This document shows positions 436 to 7,386 of a stretch of DNA of 58,664 bases, in pieces. Position numbers and translations under genes: made by a program. The notes beneath the pieces were generated by a model. That model made no database searches. It saw only the letters and a list, made by a program, of their open reading frames with translations, and had not been told where the DNA came from. Location of the stretch: IMG/VR virus record IMGVR_UViG_3300025096_000019, positions 1 through 58,664 of that record. The stretch is one strand, 5' to 3'. Numbering within the stretch: position 1 is the stretch's first letter; each line of letters starts with the position of its first letter. The DNA is from a virus.

Positions 436-846
436 TCATTTAAATTGACACCTATCAATTGTTTTTGTTGTGGAATATTCTACCATTCTATCAAAGAAAA
501 TTAATTCACCATCATAATAAGATTTGATGGTGGATTTCTCTTTCCAATCAGAACCTACTATTATTATATCAGGTTTAAGCGACTTTATCAACTCCTCAAA
601 TTCTGGTTCACTAGAAAAAAATATTACTTCATCGACTGATCTTAAATTCTCAAGAAGAAACTTTCTCTCTTCCTGATTGTGTATGGGTCTACTAGGACCC
701 TTCTTTTCTTTTATACATTCATCAGTATCAATCCCAACAATAACATACCCAAAACTTTTTGCATAATTTAAAAGTTCAAGATGTCCCCTATGGAGAATGT
801 CAAAAGTTCCATTAACAAAAACTCTTTTCACTAACGGAACTCGCAT
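436..846 (-). CDS. HldE/RfaE C-domain-like nucleotidyltransferase
   Basis: This 136-residue protein is a single cytidylyltransferase-like domain. It has the FVNGTFDILHRGH signature (HxGH at 19-22), GPSRP at about 50-54, EER at 59-61, IVGSD at about 96-100 and a YSTTKTIDR segment near the C-terminus. These match heptose-1-phosphate adenylyltransferase (HldE C-domain) and glycerol-3-phosphate cytidylyltransferase (TagD); the GPSRP/EER pattern favours HldE. Such enzymes couple a sugar or polyol phosphate to a nucleotide. The real substrate is unknown. The ATG overlaps the gp44 end by 16 bases. A GTG directly after the gp44 stop (TAGTG) is an alternative start. It occupies the place where T4-like cyanophages usually carry clamp-loader gp62. 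Confidence 0.8.
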   Translation of the reverse strand: MRVPLVKRVFVNGTFDILHRGHLELLNYAKSFGYVIVGIDTDECIKEKKGPSRPIHNQEERKFLLENLRSVDEVIFFSSEPEFEELIKSLKPDIIIVGSDWKEKSTIKSYYDGELIFFDRMVEYSTTKTIDRCQFK

Positions 847-1772
847 TCTACCATAATTTCAGTTAATGCTGCTAACAGATTTATCTCTTGATCTGCTACG
901 AACGCGATCTGGTATTGGTATCTCGCAATAATAAGAACGGCAGCAGGTATAGTATTAGGGACCAAGGATTCGTATAGACTATCGTAGATACGACGAAGTA
1001 ATACAGAAGAATCATTATCCATATTAGCGACCACCCATTTACGAACCTCAGGGAAATTTTTTCCTTTAAGATTTTTAATGAGATCATCTACAACAACGTC
1101 TGAGAACGCCGCAAGTATTCCCGTATCAATTTTTCCCCCGACCGAGTACCTCTGACATTCATTAAGAACTCGTCTCCAATCAGGAAAATGCTTATTAATG
1201 AGCTGAACAAGAACTTTCTTATCGGCTTCAATTTTCTCTTGCTCCAAGATGTTGTTGAGTCTTTTGAAGAATTCAGCAGCAATCGTCTGCTTCTCCTTAC
1301 CCTTAACACTGAATTCGACCACAGCACACCTGGAGTGAAGCGGTTCGATAATCTTATTCTTGTAGTTGCATGTAAAAATGAATCGGCAGTTACCTGCAAA
1401 TTCTTCAATGAAAGCCCGTAAGAGGAGTTGTACGTCGTTACCCGTGTTGTCTGCTTCATCGATGATAACAACTTTGTGTTTTGCTTCTGACGCAAGCGAG
1501 ACCGTCGAGGCAAAGTTTTTCGCATTATTACGGACGGTATCGAGGAACCGTCCTTCGTCCGATCCGTTAATGACATAGAAGTCTACCCCCAGTTCGTTAC
1601 AAAGTGCTTTTGCTACTGTTGTCTTACCGACCCCAGGAGGACCAGCAAGTAACATATTTGGTATTTCACCCTTATTTAGGAAGTCGCTAAACGTTTTCTT
1701 TATATTGTCAGGTAAAATACATTCCTCAATAGTTTGAGGTCTATACTTTTCAACCCAGATAAAGTCACTCAT
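831..1772 (-). CDS. gp44: Sliding clamp loader large subunit gp44
   Basis: AAA+ ATPase of the clamp-loader family, 313 residues, close to T4 gp44 (319). It has the WVEKYRP N-terminal box, Walker A GPPGVGKT at 44-51, Walker B VVIIDEAD at 101-108, a sensor-1 FTCN near 133 and the SRC arginine-finger motif at 147-149. With gp62 it opens and loads the gp45 clamp on primer-template DNA. The start overlaps the stop of the small membrane protein gene by 4 bases (ATGA). gp62 is not found directly downstream, unlike the usual cyanophage order. Confidence 0.95.
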   Translation of the reverse strand: MSDFIWVEKYRPQTIEECILPDNIKKTFSDFLNKGEIPNMLLAGPPGVGKTTVAKALCNELGVDFYVINGSDEGRFLDTVRNNAKNFASTVSLASEAKHKVVIIDEADNTGNDVQLLLRAFIEEFAGNCRFIFTCNYKNKIIEPLHSRCAVVEFSVKGKEKQTIAAEFFKRLNNILEQEKIEADKKVLVQLINKHFPDWRRVLNECQRYSVGGKIDTGILAAFSDVVVDDLIKNLKGKNFPEVRKWVVANMDNDSSVLLRRIYDSLYESLVPNTIPAAVLIIARYQYQIAFVADQEINLLAALTEIMVECEFR

Positions 1773-1993
1773 GATGTAGAAAGTTGAACAATTTTAGTAA
1801 TGTCAATTACTGCGAAGAATGATGATACACATGCAATATCATATGCCTTACAATTAAGTGAAAAAGGTAATACTAAAAGATTACCAAAAAGACGAGCAGT
1901 GCATCCAGATTTCACATCAACGTACAATACGAGGAAGTAACCCACAATAAGTAAGATACTCCCCAATAATCGGCATTTAGTTATGGTTGTCAT
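1769..1993 (-). CDS. Small membrane protein between clamp and clamp loader
   Basis: A 74-residue hydrophobic protein with one clear membrane segment (LLGSILLIVGYFLVLYV, about residues 9-25) and a second hydrophobic stretch around 36-46, with further apolar residues to the end. It overlaps gp45 upstream and gp44 downstream by 4 bases each, so it is embedded in the replisome operon. I recall similar small membrane ORFs at this position in other cyanophages, but no function is established. It could tether something to the membrane; that is speculation. Confidence 0.65.
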   Translation of the reverse strand: MTTITKCRLLGSILLIVGYFLVLYVDVKSGCTARLFGNLLVLPFSLNCKAYDIACVSSFFAVIDITKIVQLSTS

Positions 1994-2679
1994 CCAAAGG
2001 TAGAATCAGGTTCCAGAGCAATATAATACTTCAAATCATACTGACTATTCGTAAACTGTGATAAAAGTTTAGATGAAATTATCACATCATATGCACCAGG
2101 AATAATTTTAATATTCTCTACTCTAAAATTAAATGTAAATTCCTTAACAGTTTCACCAACAGCAATGGCGAATGTATTAGAGGTATCATTCTTCTTATCA
2201 CGAACAACTAAGTTAACTACACCAGAACCACCAATGACACTGAAATCAGGAAGTTGATATACAGCTGCTGCTTTAAGGAGTTTTTCCAAAGACGCACTCT
2301 CTAATTGAAAATGTACATCCTCAGATGGAAGTGTAATCTCCTTATCAGGAGGTGAGATAATAACATTAGGATCTGCATAAAAATACCTAACCTTACGCTT
2401 ACCTTCCTGAATAGTAATATAAGAATCTTGTGAGAAATCTAGATCAGGATCTTGGTGAAGATCCAATCCATTCAGAAATTGATTCAAATCATAGATAGCA
2501 AACTCACGAGGAAACTGTTCCTCAATTATTGCTTCTGCAAGAATATTCTTAGCAACAGAAATAGTACGAAGTTGATTCCCTTTCTTTACAAGAATAGAAT
2601 TATTAATTCCAGCAAAGTTCTTAAGGATGGTCAGAGTCTTGTCAGATAAATTCATTTTTTCAGTTGATCTAAGTTTCAT
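1990..2679 (-). CDS. gp45: Sliding clamp gp45 (DNA polymerase processivity factor)
   Basis: 229 residues, as in T4 gp45 (228). Recognisable features are the LKNFAGINNSI N-terminal segment, an AIYDLNQFL segment matching the T4 clamp, and a C-terminal YYIALEPDS block matching the T4 end. The trimeric clamp encircles DNA, gives the polymerase processivity and in T4 also activates late transcription with gp33/gp55. Translation may begin at the first ATG or at a second in-frame ATG (codon 9, position 2655); the second gives an N-terminus closer in length to T4. It begins 2 bases after the DUF3310 gene. Confidence 0.93.
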   Translation of the reverse strand: MKLRSTEKMNLSDKTLTILKNFAGINNSILVKKGNQLRTISVAKNILAEAIIEEQFPREFAIYDLNQFLNGLDLHQDPDLDFSQDSYITIQEGKRKVRYFYADPNVIISPPDKEITLPSEDVHFQLESASLEKLLKAAAVYQLPDFSVIGGSGVVNLVVRDKKNDTSNTFAIAVGETVKEFTFNFRVENIKIIPGAYDVIISSKLLSQFTNSQYDLKYYIALEPDSTFG

Positions 2680-2681
2680 AA

Positions 2682-3107
2682 TTAAGGCATTGTGTGATCA
2701 ATATTTCCAGTAGTTAAAGATGGTTTACCGTAATGATCATCGAAGTGTAAGAGTAGCATAGCATAATGGATGACTTTCATCAAGTCTTTCTTTTCTTTTC
2801 CATCCTTACTTCCATACCTACTACCATACTTTATAATATTTGCCTGACAAAATCCAGAAGCAATGTCCCGTGCTGCCAATAAATCTAAGGTTTGAACCTT
2901 ACGATACTCATGACTAGTACCAGTGTAATGCCCTCTATAAGTAGAAGATACATAGGATTCAATATCCTTAAGTATCTCCTCTTCATGATATTTAAAATAA
3001 TGCGCTGCCATTTCTTTTTCTAATTCCTCCTTTTTCGATTGAACGTAATTTGCTTCATCATCAGGTCCGTACATAACGTCGTATAATAAACTCCATGAAT
3101 TAGTCAT
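2682..3107 (-). CDS. DUF3310-like protein
   Basis: The C-terminal part (SGFCQANIIKYGSRYGSKDG then KKDLMKVIHYAMLLL) resembles the DUF3310 signature found in many phage nucleotide-metabolism or uncharacterised proteins. The N-terminal half is charged and helical. An ATG at 3179 is possible but would overlap pebS by 80 bases. The ATG at 3107 gives 141 residues and only 8 bases of overlap, so I prefer it. The gene lies between pebS and the clamp gene. No activity can be named. Confidence 0.72.
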   Translation of the reverse strand: MTNSWSLLYDVMYGPDDEANYVQSKKEELEKEMAAHYFKYHEEEILKDIESYVSSTYRGHYTGTSHEYRKVQTLDLLAARDIASGFCQANIIKYGSRYGSKDGKEKKDLMKVIHYAMLLLHFDDHYGKPSLTTGNIDHTMP

Positions 3108-3717
3108 AACAGAATAAAAACTCATCAATAAATGATCCTGTTTTCTCCTTTCCAAATTTTTGCGAAAGAAATCCAGCAACTGGATCCAACTTCTTCATAT
3201 ACTTATCAAAATCTGAATAGAAAGCAGTGTCTTCGCCAGTTGGTTTCTTACATTCTACCATATCTTTGAACTTAGTCAAGTATTTCTTAAACATATCAAG
3301 ATGTTCATCAACCTCAGATGGAGCACATTTAGCAACATAAATGTTTTCAGAAAAATGATTACCAGGTTCAAAAAACCTAATATTTCCTTCCTGTTTAGGC
3401 AATCCATCCACAGAAAACATATAATTTTCCACAGGGTGTTGATAATCAAAGACAATAATAACCTTCTTCTCAGAAAATTTCATCAAATCTACACCAAAAC
3501 ATGGAAGATTAGATCCAGTCTTAGGGTAAATGATAGTATTGTAAATATCACATCTAGAATCCCAAACCTCAGTCTCTCTCATCTTAATAAAATATGGATG
3601 AGTATAAAGATTTGCTCTCAATTCAGCACCATTAGAACTCCAGTTTGCCCACTGTTGAGTAAATGTTAAGTCAAAAGTATGACCTAACACTTCTTTATAA
3701 TTATTCCACAGATTCAT
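3100..3717 (-). CDS. pebS: Ferredoxin-dependent bilin reductase, PebS type
   Basis: 205 residues of the FDBR family. The stretch SRCDIYNTIIYPKTG (about 54-68), LPCFGVDLMKFS (71-82), IIVFDYQHP (87-95) and the C-terminal FLFCYD match, as I recall it, phage phycoerythrobilin synthase PebS of P-SSM2. The two key aspartates appear at D77 and D178, spaced 101 as in PebS (D105/D206). PebS reduces biliverdin IXalpha by four electrons to phycoerythrobilin using host ferredoxin. The start at 3717 is chosen over 3756 because GGAGG lies about 10 bases upstream and the overlap with cobS shrinks to 17 bases. PcyX- or PebA-like chemistry cannot be excluded. No heme oxygenase gene is in the window. Confidence 0.9.
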   Translation of the reverse strand: MNLWNNYKEVLGHTFDLTFTQQWANWSSNGAELRANLYTHPYFIKMRETEVWDSRCDIYNTIIYPKTGSNLPCFGVDLMKFSEKKVIIVFDYQHPVENYMFSVDGLPKQEGNIRFFEPGNHFSENIYVAKCAPSEVDEHLDMFKKYLTKFKDMVECKKPTGEDTAFYSDFDKYMKKLDPVAGFLSQKFGKEKTGSFIDEFLFCYD

Positions 3718-4816
3718 ATGCTTTATCCTCCGCCCTATCAAATTCGAAATCAGCATCTACTTTATCATACAATTCTAAAAAAGATTGTTTTGTTTCATCA
3801 TCAAAACGATTCACACACACTGCAATTGCTTTCTCCTTTTTACCAAAGATAGCATAAGCACGAATGATATGAACCAGACGACGAGTACTAATGATTTCAT
3901 CAATACCACCATCATAGAACGTTTTACGAATAATGTCAGCCCAATCAACTAATCGTTTACAGAAATCTTTATCATTTACGCCAACACTGTCAGCAACATT
4001 GAAAAGAATCTTCTGTTCAGCAGTAGGAGCAGGATAATCTTGCTCAAATGTTACAGGGAATCTTTCGAGGAAGGCTTCATTAAGCACGTTAGTTCCAATA
4101 AACCGTCCGTCGTCTGAACCTTTACCCTTAGTGTTTGCCGTTGCGATGATGTTGAATCCTTTTGCTGGTCTGATGAATTTTCCGATTTTTTTAATGAAAA
4201 CTCCATTACCTTCAAGGATCGACTGGAGGCAGAGGATTTTGTTACTGGCAAGGTCGATCTCGTCAAGGAGCAAGATACACCCCCGTTGTAAAGCTTCAAT
4301 GACTGGACCGTTGTGCCAGACTGTGGAACCGTCAACAAGGCGGAAGCCACCAATGAGATCATCTTCATCTGTTTCGATAGTAATGTTTACGCGGATAAGT
4401 TCTTTTTTGAGTTGGGAACAGGCTTGTTCGACACTAAACGTTTTACCGTTGCCTGAAAGGCCAGTAATGAATGTAGGGTAAAACAGATTGGCTTTGAGAA
4501 TGGTCTTAATATCGCTAAAAGGACCAAACTTGACGAAGGTATCATCTTTCTCTGGGATAAGGTTTTGTTGAATGCTGTGAGTAACGGCAGGAGCACTGAA
4601 TGATCTCTCAATCTGCTGTACGCTTTCTTTTGTTACTTCAAGGTTCCACTTACCTCTTCCAACTTTAAACTCCTCTAAACGACGAGTTACAGTCTGGTAG
4701 TTGATGCTACGAGAGGCACAGAACCCTTTAACATCGGCAGCAGTTATCTCAACACCGTAAAGAGACTGCAATTCAGTAAGTAAATGTTTATCAGTCAAAG
4801 CAATCTTACGAGGCAT
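3701..4816 (-). CDS. cobS: CobS-like MoxR-type AAA+ ATPase
   Basis: 371 residues. A helical N-terminal domain (1-95) is followed by an AAA+ module with Walker A GLSGNGKT at 119-126, a DEDDLIGGF loop near 150, Walker B LLLDEID at 182-188, sensor ATANT at 225-229 and an arginine finger in LERF near 251. The IRPAKGFNIIATANT and GTNVLNEAFLERF segments resemble CobS, the ATPase of aerobic cobaltochelatase CobNST, and more generally MoxR/CbbQ ATPases. T4-like cyanophages are commonly annotated with cobS. It is 80 bases downstream of the VWA-protein gene, so the two probably act as a pair. Whether it chelates cobalt is unproven; no CobN-like gene is in the window. Confidence 0.85.
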   Translation of the reverse strand: MPRKIALTDKHLLTELQSLYGVEITAADVKGFCASRSINYQTVTRRLEEFKVGRGKWNLEVTKESVQQIERSFSAPAVTHSIQQNLIPEKDDTFVKFGPFSDIKTILKANLFYPTFITGLSGNGKTFSVEQACSQLKKELIRVNITIETDEDDLIGGFRLVDGSTVWHNGPVIEALQRGCILLLDEIDLASNKILCLQSILEGNGVFIKKIGKFIRPAKGFNIIATANTKGKGSDDGRFIGTNVLNEAFLERFPVTFEQDYPAPTAEQKILFNVADSVGVNDKDFCKRLVDWADIIRKTFYDGGIDEIISTRRLVHIIRAYAIFGKKEKAIAVCVNRFDDETKQSFLELYDKVDADFEFDRAEDKAYESVE

Positions 4817-4828
4817 GATGTAGCGTTT

Positions 4829-4870
4829 TATTTATGAAGTTATTATAACAATAAAAAGAAGTATATTAAA
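4829..4870 (-). promoter_or_regulatory. Candidate tandem promoter upstream of cobS-like gene
   Basis: CATAAATA (4829-4836) resembles the T4-type late -10 element. A perfect TATAAT (4842-4847) lies just upstream of it, with a weak TTTAAT -35 candidate at 4865-4870 (17-base spacer). Together they suggest independent early and late starts for the cobS-pebS-gp45 block. The late motif leaves a very short leader. Confidence 0.4.
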
Positions 4871-4878
4871 CCTCTTGT

Positions 4879-4898
4879 AGACACTTTACAAAGTGTCT
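4879..4898 (-). other. Perfect hairpin at the CobT-like stop codon
   Basis: A 20-base inverted repeat (AGACACTT, loop TGTA, AAGTGTCT) overlaps the stop codon of the VWA-protein gene. No T-tract follows, so it is not a typical intrinsic terminator. It may slow ribosomes, protect the mRNA 3' end or act as a processing site ahead of cobS. Confidence 0.5.
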
Positions 4899-7023
4899 AT
4901 GCTATCAACTCCATAAACTCTCCCAATACTCTCTTATTCATCTTCTTACATTTAAGACTCTTCACAAATGCACGTTTAATTTGTGCCTTGGTTGCATCAT
5001 CAACAACATCAAATTCATCATCATTTCCCAATGCATTTGCAGAAAATCCAAAATAAGTATGGTATCCAGAATTTTTAATAGCAAATGATTTTTCCCTTTT
5101 CCAACTCTTCATTACCTTATCATATTCATCACTATGCCCAATATATCTACGAATAAACTGGCCAGCATCTCTTGAAGTAAGAACACGAATACCAATGAAA
5201 TTAGTCTGAGGATAGCTCTGACGTAAATCATGTAATAATAAATCAGTTACATCTGCCCAATACCCCATTCCCTCACAAGAATAAGTATGTCCTGTTCTAC
5301 GATTACGGAGTACACAACGATCATTAATATACTGACTCCCCATAAAAGGATTAGACTCCCAATTACGTTGAAACTCCTTACTATATCTCAAAGGAGCAGC
5401 TTCTCCATCAGTAAGAATAACACATTGAACTTTCTGCAGATTATGTTCTTTCTTAAATTCAGGCAAAATCTGATGTAATGAAATTAAAGCTTCATTTAAT
5501 GGAGTACCAGACAGATTCATACCTATCGGAACATTATAAGGTACATAAAATTGATGACCAAAAGCAAGTGCAATACGGAATATATTCTTCATTTGTTGGT
5601 CCAAAGTCTTAGCATTAACCCTACTACTAAACAAATTCATCAAAGAAAATGTTTCTTCAATAAGAGCTATCCCAACTTTCTTCTCATAAGCAAGTCTATG
5701 CATCCCTTCAGATGATGGATACTCATGAGTAAAAGCATAAACCTCAAAAGGAATATTAACCTTCTTACAAAACCACAACAAATTATATAATTGTTTAATC
5801 GTATCCAACATCACATCTGACATTGATCCAGACCAATCCAAAATAAACACTAATCCATGATTCTTTCCATCAGGAATAATACTTACCTTTCTAAAAATAT
5901 CCTCATTATACTTGTAGGTATGAAGTTTAGTTGTATCCAAAACTCCGGTTCTAGCAGTAGTAGCACGAGCATATGCATCAGCAGACTTCTTACACTCAAA
6001 CTCCTTAACCATATAATTTACTTCTTTTTGTGCAGACTTCTTAAACTTTACAAATTCACCATCTGCTTCTCCAAATATATCCCGAATAGTAAGAAATTCT
6101 GATTTTAACCAATCTTCCTCTTGCTCTATAAAATCCCCAGCAATACCACTATGAATTTTAGTATTAGAAATAATAATTCTACGCAAATCTACCTTTGGTA
6201 ACTCAACATAAACATGTTCAGCACCACTCATCTTATTATTAAGATCTTTAAGACTATCTTCAAGAGATTGAAGAGTCTTTATTTCTAAATCACTAACACC
6301 ACCAACAGTACTTGTCTCACAATAACTAGGAGTATCTAATTGAGCAGGATCATTATTTGATGAAGATTCTTCCAATTCTTCCAACAATTCTTCATCAGTC
6401 ATCTCATCGAGATCTTTTTCATCACACATACTTATCCCTTTCTGCTCTCCTACATTATCTTCTTTGGTATTGTTTTCCACTTCTTTCTTACAATACTCAT
6501 ATAACATCAATGCAGCTTTCTTCACATCATCAAAAGTTTCACACTTTTCAATTATACTGACAATCTGTTTTTCAGTAGTCGAAAAATATATAGGAACGAA
6601 CGAACCAATCTTGAAATATAAATTAGTCCTATCAGCAATATTAAAAGTATTAAGATCTTCATTTTCTATATCAAAGAAATCATTATCATTAAGTTCATTA
6701 TATCCATTATAGAATGATTTAGCAAGTCCAGGATATTTCCTCTTCATTAATTTCTCAACTCTTGCATCTTCCACAATGTTTACAAATTGTTGAGGTATTG
6801 AATCCAAATAATCCCACTCATCAGGTGTATAAAGTGCATGTCCAACTTCATGTCCTACAAGCATATCATATACATTATTACTTGCCTTATCCCAATTAGG
6901 GAGTATAAGAACACGAGTGTGAACATTAAACTGAGCAGTATCTACTTTCTTATGTTCAACGATAAGATCTTCAGTGGCAAGAAGTTTGGCAAGTTGTGAT
7001 TTGATTTCGTGCTTGACTACCAT
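4897..7023 (-). CDS. CobT-like VWA protein with HExxH metallopeptidase-type domain
   Basis: 708 residues in three parts. The N-terminal domain carries VGHEVGHALYT (HEVGH at 58-62) and a downstream NIVEDARVE (about 82-90), the layout of a zinc gluzincin. The middle (190-235) is very acidic and low-complexity. The C-terminal half is a von Willebrand A domain with MIDAS DWSGSMS at 396-402 and a later ILTDGEA. VWA proteins paired with MoxR/CobS ATPases include CobT, CbbO, NorD and ViaA; the HExxH domain is closer to the putative metallopeptidase/VWA (DUF2201-type) proteins. The partner ATPase lies immediately downstream. CobT function is therefore only one possibility. Protein remodelling or proteolysis of a host target is another. 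Confidence 0.8.
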   Translation of the reverse strand: MVVKHEIKSQLAKLLATEDLIVEHKKVDTAQFNVHTRVLILPNWDKASNNVYDMLVGHEVGHALYTPDEWDYLDSIPQQFVNIVEDARVEKLMKRKYPGLAKSFYNGYNELNDNDFFDIENEDLNTFNIADRTNLYFKIGSFVPIYFSTTEKQIVSIIEKCETFDDVKKAALMLYEYCKKEVENNTKEDNVGEQKGISMCDEKDLDEMTDEELLEELEESSSNNDPAQLDTPSYCETSTVGGVSDLEIKTLQSLEDSLKDLNNKMSGAEHVYVELPKVDLRRIIISNTKIHSGIAGDFIEQEEDWLKSEFLTIRDIFGEADGEFVKFKKSAQKEVNYMVKEFECKKSADAYARATTARTGVLDTTKLHTYKYNEDIFRKVSIIPDGKNHGLVFILDWSGSMSDVMLDTIKQLYNLLWFCKKVNIPFEVYAFTHEYPSSEGMHRLAYEKKVGIALIEETFSLMNLFSSRVNAKTLDQQMKNIFRIALAFGHQFYVPYNVPIGMNLSGTPLNEALISLHQILPEFKKEHNLQKVQCVILTDGEAAPLRYSKEFQRNWESNPFMGSQYINDRCVLRNRRTGHTYSCEGMGYWADVTDLLLHDLRQSYPQTNFIGIRVLTSRDAGQFIRRYIGHSDEYDKVMKSWKREKSFAIKNSGYHTYFGFSANALGNDDEFDVVDDATKAQIKRAFVKSLKCKKMNKRVLGEFMELIA

Positions 7024-7217
7024 TGCTTACTCCTTAATTTCTTAACAAGACGAATAGCTTCATTAATATCCAAATCCCATCCTTCATCACCTTTATCAAC
7101 TAAATGTTTAACAATGACTTCATCTGCTTCCTCTTTCATATAGATGGCAGAAATAAGTGCTTCGGAACAGTAATCTTCATAGGTTGCATTCCAACCTAAA
7201 TCCGATGGCATGTGCAT
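7017..7217 (-). CDS. Hypothetical acidic protein, 66 aa
   Basis: Not assigned to a named family. It has a LGWNATYEDYCSEAL motif (about 7-21), an acidic middle and a basic C-terminus. It overlaps the CobT-like start by 7 bases, so the two are likely translated together. The first ATG (7217) or the third codon (7211) may be the start. A terminator-like hairpin and a TATAAT box (7241-7246) lie just upstream, so this may be the first gene of the cobT-cobS-pebS-gp45 block. Confidence 0.6.
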   Translation of the reverse strand: MHMPSDLGWNATYEDYCSEALISAIYMKEEADEVIVKHLVDKGDEGWDLDINEAIRLVKKLRSKQW

Positions 7218-7386
7218 GGTGCTTTGTTTCGGTTGAACCTATTATACGAGAAAACCTCCCTTTTGAGGAGGTCATTAGACGGTTTATCAACTGTCTACGT
7301 CTTGCCTTAGCAGCACGTAGAGCCTGTGGTTTAAGTTTTCTTTTGGGTGGCTTCCCAGAGTTGTGTTGCCAGTTTGGAGTATTCAT
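7177..7386 (-). CDS. Small basic protein after gp46, uncertain
   Basis: A 69-residue ORF starting 3 bases after the gp46 stop. Its N-terminal half is strongly basic (KPPKRKLKPQALRAAKARRR, about 12-31), as in small nucleic-acid-binding proteins. The C-terminal half reads through a terminator-like hairpin and a TATAAT box and overlaps the next gene by 41 bases, so it is less convincing as protein. The N-terminal part is probably real; the end may be incidental read-through. Confidence 0.45.
   Translation of the reverse strand: MNTPNWQHNSGKPPKRKLKPQALRAAKARRRQLINRLMTSSKGRFSRIIGSTETKHHAHAIGFRLECNL
7249..7272 (-). terminator. Terminator-like hairpin followed by TATAAT box
   Basis: Stem ACCTCC/GGAGGT with a 7-base loop and a short TTTT run in the minus-strand transcript. 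A TATAAT (7241-7246) follows within a few bases, but no good -35 is seen. It probably separates gp46 transcription from the CobT-like operon. Confidence 0.5.

Follow-up and report, generated by a model that had tools for sequence, protein, structure and literature searches.

A 58,664-base IMG/VR virus record of a T4-like cyanomyovirus (IMGVR_UViG_3300025096_000019; hereafter "the window", meaning the whole of this stretch) carries a gene for a bilin reductase, which is embedded between a CobS/CobT-like gene pair and the gene of the sliding clamp gp45. The explanation that we favour, with a probability of about 0.72 for the whole of it, is that a true phage pebS gene was inserted in an exchangeable slot of a conserved replication block (cobS-DUF3310-gp45-gp44) and would be transcribed together with it from a composite promoter immediately past cobT; the cobT-like gene would form a unit of its own, preceded by another copy of the palindromic element of this promoter. 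The composite promoter would comprise a palindrome of 18 bp, a TATAAT −10 hexamer and, between them, a spacer held at about 32 nucleotides (nt) that often contains the terminator hairpin of the upstream gene; a putative dimeric, phage-specific regulator, centred near −53, may switch on the small open reading frame (small-ORF; probably early) region and both units together. Given co-transcription under a shared promoter, PebS would be made alongside the replisome, with biliverdin supplied by the host or through a phage ho1 gene elsewhere in the genome, and its link to CobS and CobT would be positional, not biochemical. The original prediction for this locus had placed the cobT-like gene, cobS, pebS, the DUF3310 gene and gp45 on one transcript and had proposed a joint tetrapyrrole programme. 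The relevant features, in descending window positions, are as follows.

7278–7295, minus strand: palindromic element 1, GACAGTTGATAAACCGTC, with one mismatch to GMCASTTNNNNAASTGKC; upstream of the 66-amino-acid (aa) ORF and the CobT-like unit
7247–7277: terminator-like hairpin in the spacer of the cobT unit; ACCUCC/GGGAGGU stem plus U-run, minimum free energy (MFE) −18.0, z −3.3
7241–7246, minus strand: TATAAT −10 hexamer of the cobT unit, 31 nt past palindrome 1
7017–7217, minus strand: 66-aa ORF, first gene of the cobT unit; no PHROG; palindrome 78 nt upstream
4897–7023, minus strand: CobT-like protein (phrog_459 "peptidase", T4-GC 146); N-terminal HExxH and C-terminal von Willebrand A (VWA) domain with intact MIDAS
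4880–4897, minus strand: palindromic element 2, GACACTTTGTAAAGTGTC, an exact match; shares its first base with the end of the cobT stop codon
4848–4876: hairpin and T-run between palindrome 2 and TATAAT; MFE −15.3, z −3.6
4842–4847, minus strand: TATAAT −10 hexamer of the cobS-pebS-gp45 unit, 32 nt past palindrome 2
3701–4816, minus strand: CobS-like MoxR-type AAA+ ATPase (phrog_249, T4-GC 150); AAA_5 and CbbQ_C
3100–3717, minus strand: pebS, phycoerythrobilin synthase, 205 aa (Fe_bilin_red; phrog_7278); start codon within the 3' end of cobS
2682–3107, minus strand: DUF3310 protein (T4-GC 152 position), ATG start
1990–2679, minus strand: gp45 sliding clamp (gp45-slide_C; phrog_223, E=5e-85)
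1769–1993, minus strand: 74-aa small protein (phrog_2318), which carries the unit on to gp44
831–1772, minus strand: gp44 clamp loader large subunit (AAA, Gp44_lid)

Replication genes occupy the left end of the window and structural genes follow rightward. The minus-strand order is gp47, gp46, two small ORFs, the CobT-like gene, the CobS-like gene, the bilin reductase gene, DUF3310, gp45, the 74-aa ORF and gp44. Neighbouring genes overlap by 17 nt (cobS/pebS), 8 nt (pebS/DUF3310), 7 nt (66-aa ORF/cobT) and 4 nt (on either side of the 74-aa ORF), and 2 nt separate DUF3310 from gp45. The ORF coordinates, thus, bear out the originally described order, strand and packing of the five genes, with two corrections. 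The junction between cobT and cobS is a gap of 80 nt (4817–4896) without any overlap, and the start of DUF3310 is most likely the ATG at 3107 rather than the TTG at 3179, since pebS and the gene at this position likewise overlap by 8 nt in S-SSM7, Sf-FS3 and S-BM3.

The arrangement cobT-cobS-pebS-DUF3310-gp45 is already known from sequenced relatives, with identical order and strand and a hypothetical gene at the DUF3310 position in the annotated genomes of S-SSM7, Sf-FS3, S-8S55 and S-BM3. These differ from the window in that additional genes separate cobT from cobS in S-BM3 and S-8S55, and in that the DUF3310-position proteins of S-SSM7 and Sf-FS3 are longer. Among the 80 closest IMG/VR loci, cobS lies directly upstream of pebS in 63 of the 67 informative cases and DUF3310/gp45 directly downstream in 62 of 63; these and all further counts of loci and genomes ignore kinship. 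pebS is located away from cobS in P-SSM2, P-HM1, MED4-213, P-RSM6, S-SCSM1 and S-PRM1. The place between cobS and the DUF3310 position is taken by a 2-oxoglutarate (2OG)-Fe(II) oxygenase gene in P-SSM2 and by an endonuclease V gene followed by a 55-aa C-terminal pebS stump in S-T4 (L010:7425-8183); it holds no extra gene in P-HM1 and S-TIM4, and in S-PM2 no gene is annotated between cobS and gp45. The cobS-DUF3310-gp45 core is independent of pebS and, therefore, pebS is one of several passengers in a swappable slot within an older block. S-T4 apparently represents a gene swap with the old pebS remnant still in place; the ORF ahead of the stump was considered as the missing pebS N-terminus and rejected, as it encodes the endonuclease V. 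As a separate observation, two IMG/VR contigs (L046, L079) carry gp45/gp44 or gp47-gp46-cobT on the opposite side of cobS-pebS from usual, and are likely chimeric or circularly permuted assemblies.

The composite element that precedes both cobT and cobS consists of the 18-bp palindrome GMCASTTN4AASTGKC, a spacer of 31–33 nt and TATAAT. At up to one mismatch, the palindrome occurs at only two sites in the 58.7 kb of the window, where 0.07 would be expected. In relatives, it is found at this threshold within 250 nt upstream of cobT in 31/36 cases and upstream of cobS in 49/63, the latter count rising to 61/63 when two mismatches are allowed. No such palindrome (up to one mismatch) is present upstream of seven other genes (325 regions in all), namely gp55 (0/9), gp47 (0/19), gp46 (0/26), pebS (0/87), DUF3310 (0/73), gp45 (0/73) and gp44 (0/38). 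A TATAAT hexamer within 100 nt upstream of cobS is shared by 85% of relatives and precedes pebS, DUF3310 or gp45 in none of them. The spacing is tight, with the exact hexamer, where it occurs within 100 nt, lying 31–33 nt past the palindrome in 84 of about 99 instances. Across 964 kb of loci, a −10 hexamer at 30–34 nt accompanies 121/135 forward-strand sites versus 18/134 on the opposite strand, and dinucleotide shuffles of these loci yield 1.7 sites, none of them with a −10. Furthermore, the palindrome remains beside cobS where other genes separate cobT and cobS, as is the case in S-BM3, S-8S55 and P-SSM2. The pebS genes of P-HM1 and MED4-213 are preceded by a poor look-alike only, without a spaced −10. 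The late-promoter motif ATAAATA, which is present upstream of cobS in the window, was set aside because it is shared by 23% of relatives only.

These elements have a bearing on how the block may be transcribed. In the 80-nt gap between cobT and cobS, a fold of two hairpins (z = −3.6) precedes T's and TATAAT, hence a transcription boundary probably lies within the block; the junction before the cobT unit folds significantly as well (z −3.3). In many relatives, the spacer contains a GC-rich hairpin and a T-run, so that the terminator of the preceding gene appears to be nested in the promoter of the next. Because palindrome and TATAAT precede cobT and cobS and not pebS, DUF3310 or gp45, there are probably two separately started units, the cobT unit and a cobS-pebS-DUF3310-gp45-gp44 unit. 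The shared transcript originally predicted is, thus, retained in part: pebS is very likely co-transcribed with cobS, DUF3310 and gp45, and cobT drops out of it on account of the conserved terminator-like hairpins and promoter before cobS.

The composite element is general in T4-like cyanophages. Counted over whole genomes, the palindrome outnumbers its reversed pattern by 11–19 to 0–1 sites in G003, S-SSM7, P-SSM2 and S-T4, by 3–4 to 1–2 in S-8S55 and P-HM1, and by 4–11 to 0–1 in six further cyanophages; for Syn9, the numbers are 5 and 0. The sites are mostly found in a region of small ORFs (38.9–51.8 kb in S-SSM7, 44.6–68.8 kb in P-SSM2), in which the palindrome often starts at the end of one gene, about 80 nt ahead of the next. 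It is absent from the genome of Pelagibacter phage Mosig and not enriched in four Synechococcus/Cyanobium genomes (1–3 sites versus 5–13 for the reversed pattern), which does not support a host operator. The palindrome is probably the site of a putative dimeric, phage-specific regulator. A −10 hexamer usually occupies −12 to −7, and with this position assumed, the centre of the palindrome would fall near −53. That such a regulator, acting from about 53 bp upstream of the start, controls the early small-ORF region together with the cobT and cobS units, with PebS under early/replication control and the spacer serving as terminator of the preceding gene, is a proposal to which we give even odds. 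Doron et al. (2016, ISME J) reportedly described a novel early-gene regulatory element in the T4-like cyanophages Syn9 and P-TIM40, alongside host-like middle promoters. The palindrome likewise has most of its sites among the small ORFs and is over-represented in Syn9, and may be a rediscovery of that element.

The bilin reductase itself is PebS by the criteria of phylogeny and active-site residues. Its best PDB match is PebS of P-SSM2 (2vck, E=2e-77), with PebA far behind (6e-10), and in a maximum-likelihood tree all PebS sequences, including that of the window, lie on one side of a branch with full support (100/100, 100% of bootstrap trees). References in this tree were the host ferredoxin-dependent bilin reductase paralogues (PebA, PebB, PcyA) and phage PcyA-type proteins, with no PcyX sequence included; as the 100/100 PebS clade leaves out the PcyA-type proteins, a PcyX identity is unlikely. 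Both catalytic aspartates are kept, the motifs GVDLM and KLDPV aligning with D105 and D206 of the P-SSM2 enzyme (PDB 2vck, 2x9i, 2x9j), which belongs to the same clade at about 55% identity. The four-electron reduction of biliverdin to phycoerythrobilin is, therefore, the expected chemistry of the window enzyme. The genomic settings of the two genes differ, in that P-SSM2 has pebS among its small ORFs, at a distance of about 80 kb from cobS/gp45. A 2026 paper concluded that pebS is phage-exclusive (PMC13198022), and a pattern scan of GTDB species genomes, sensitive to close relatives only, found no close PebS relative. P-RSM6 carries pebS and a PcyA-type bilin reductase gene in tandem (L009:7968-9300); the two overlap by 8 nt and lie among structural genes, with plastocyanin nearby.

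Of the two neighbours to which a tetrapyrrole function had been ascribed, the CobS-like protein scores 75.3 bits against the NCBIfam equivalog model for CobS (TIGR01650), well below its cut-off of 558.6, and matches structures of NorQ and CbbQ besides CobS. The CobT-like protein matches no Pfam or NCBIfam model, those of the CobT family included; its PHROG match to "cobalamin biosynthesis" is weak and covers about 80 residues, and its sequence profile retrieves nothing significant from the PDB. Nine residues (H58, E59, H62, E85, D396, S398, S400, T507, D539) are invariant. Four of these, the HExxH motif (H58, E59, H62) and the downstream E85, are shared by 11 diverse proteins; they belong to an N-terminal domain without reported fold match, for which a zinc metallopeptidase of the gluzincin type is a candidate identity. 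The model of the VWA domain, predicted from an alignment of window and IMG/VR sequences only, is nearest to NorD (E=9e-5; predicted local distance difference test score 73; a domain-level match only). The neighbourhood of an AAA_5/CbbQ-type ATPase and a MIDAS-bearing VWA protein conforms to the pattern of MoxR AAA+/VWA pairs (NorQ-NorD, CbbQ-CbbO, CobS-CobT). Apart from this, the combination of an invariant HExxH with a MIDAS-bearing VWA domain makes protein cleavage or a role as MoxR-type chaperone partner candidate functions of the CobT-like protein. A Pelagibacter host is not expected to use bilins, and the cobS-cobT pair is present in Pelagibacter phage Mosig. Among phage records, 481 have cobS and 31 have pebS. 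The cobST pair is core in cyanophages (PMC8651126), as is cobS (PMC3037559). Since the pair is core, cobS mostly occurs without pebS and the pair extends to a Pelagibacter phage, the bilin linkage is not its defining context. The viral cobST cluster, for which mis-annotation of phage cobT as a peptidase has been noted, likewise joins an AAA+ ATPase to a VWA/MIDAS protein (PMC8651126); the window pair differs from it in a CobS-like protein below the CobS cut-off and in a CobT-like protein with HExxH and a NorD-nearest VWA fold.

With respect to biliverdin supply, the window indeed lacks a heme oxygenase gene, to which little weight attaches, as the record is a fragment of 58.7 kb, complete genomes of related isolates measuring 144–252 kb. 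AG-345-L05, to which the window is closest in its core genes (gp55 94%, gp44 89%), has ho1 62 kb downstream of pebS; since the window covers 3.1 kb on that side, the absence is to be expected. The suggestion that ho1 may lie elsewhere in the genome accords with the pebS phages that have ho1, where it is far from pebS. Among the complete pebS phages, ho1 is present in all four Prochlorococcus isolates tested (P-SSM2, P-HM1, MED4-213, P-RSM6), and it is also present in two single-cell virus records with pebS, AG-345-L05 and AG-345-F15. Five Synechococcus pebS phages (Sf-FS3, S-SCSM1, S-BM3, S-PRM1, S-8S55) have no ho1, nor has S-T4, which retains only the pebS stump, and in S-SSM7 the gene is broken into two frames (225045-225642). 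A host ho1 is present in Synechococcus WH7803, on which several of these pebS phages were isolated.

Several observations weigh against the favoured explanation and lend substance to other readings of the promoter region. The relatives were mostly picked by PebS similarity and are biased to close ones; S-PM2 has no site with up to one mismatch at cobS; and the pre-cobS hairpin of the window, being AU-rich and missed by a simple terminator scan, may allow read-through from cobT into cobS. A single polycistronic transcript from the 66-aa ORF through cobT, cobS, pebS, DUF3310 and gp45, with the 80-nt gap as a leaky boundary, would suit the modest hairpin, the fact that the genes all share a strand and either overlap or lie a short gap apart, and the textbook knowledge that T4-type phages often read through early terminators. 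We consider it unlikely, as palindrome and TATAAT stand at fixed spacing before cobS in nearly all relatives, stay beside cobS despite intervening genes (S-BM3, S-8S55 and P-SSM2) and are joined by GC-rich terminator hairpins in many of them. Somewhat less improbable, yet still doubtful, is that the palindrome merely belongs to the RNA terminator of the preceding gene, or to a hairpin for RNA processing, without a DNA-binding regulator: in several loci its RNA folds, it lies where the upstream gene ends, is directly followed by a T-run in some loci (L074, L017), and shows a weak pairing association at positions 2/17 (p=0.013), which leaves room for a role in RNA. Positions 5/14 are, however, paired in 28/78 sites, which is not above shuffled expectation, so that the arms vary almost independently; because they do not co-vary there and only weakly at 2/17, a DNA operator is favoured over an RNA hairpin. 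Moreover, the distance to the −10 is fixed within about 3 nt, many sites lack a T-run, and downstream of the palindrome there is often a nested terminator hairpin distinct from it. Promoter-early stem-loop (PeSL) cassettes of T4-type phages, reportedly described by Arbiol (2010) and Comeau (2014), are terminator stem-loops fused to promoters at module borders. This is also the location here, where genes come and go directly upstream, and the element could be such a recombination cassette, conserved for module shuffling rather than regulation. PeSL exchange reportedly needs near-identical copies, whereas the present element is a conserved 18-bp palindrome at a fixed distance from the −10, and its copies share only this degenerate palindrome and the hexamer; as the conserved spacing suits promoter function, we regard a cassette, too, as improbable.

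The joint tetrapyrrole programme of the original prediction, in which a CobS/CobT chelatase pair and a PebS bilin arm would have been selected together, draws on the physical linkage of these genes in many phages, on the weak match of the CobS-like protein to CobS models and on the proposal that CobST of tailed viruses hijack host CobN for cobalamin synthesis (PMC8651126). Against it stand the distributions given above, namely the disparity between cobS and pebS records and the pair in phage Mosig, as well as the several pebS phages with pebS away from cobS and the unrelated genes that hold the slot elsewhere. The seven ho1 loci that were read all lack the palindromic promoter. In addition, corrin metallation and bilin reduction share, according to textbook knowledge, no common intermediate after uroporphyrinogen III. 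We, thus, regard a joint programme as very improbable and do not uphold it.

Two further genes of the window lie beyond gp44. A cytidylyltransferase-like protein (heptose-1-phosphate adenylyltransferase type, phrog_7878) is encoded at 436-846 on the minus strand, overlaps gp44 by 16 nt, and is possibly a sugar-nucleotide gene within the unit of gp44. At 1-211, also on the minus strand, the N-terminal part of a phosphoribosyltransferase (phrog_32468), resembling orotate phosphoribosyltransferase, is cut at the contig edge.

Prochlorococcus has no ordinary phycobilisomes, and the question in the background is why its phages make phycoerythrobilin. pebS most likely travels with genes for DNA replication and not with a programme for making pigment. 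If its ties are indeed with the genes of clamp and clamp loader, as opposed to ho1 or a tetrapyrrole operon, the useful questions would become the timing of PebS relative to the replisome and the supply of biliverdin, the latter being made testable by the occurrence of ho1 in complete Prochlorococcus pebS phages and its absence from most Synechococcus ones. The composite promoter, in turn, would provide a simple rule to predict transcription units in cyanophages, and a bait sequence for the putative regulator.

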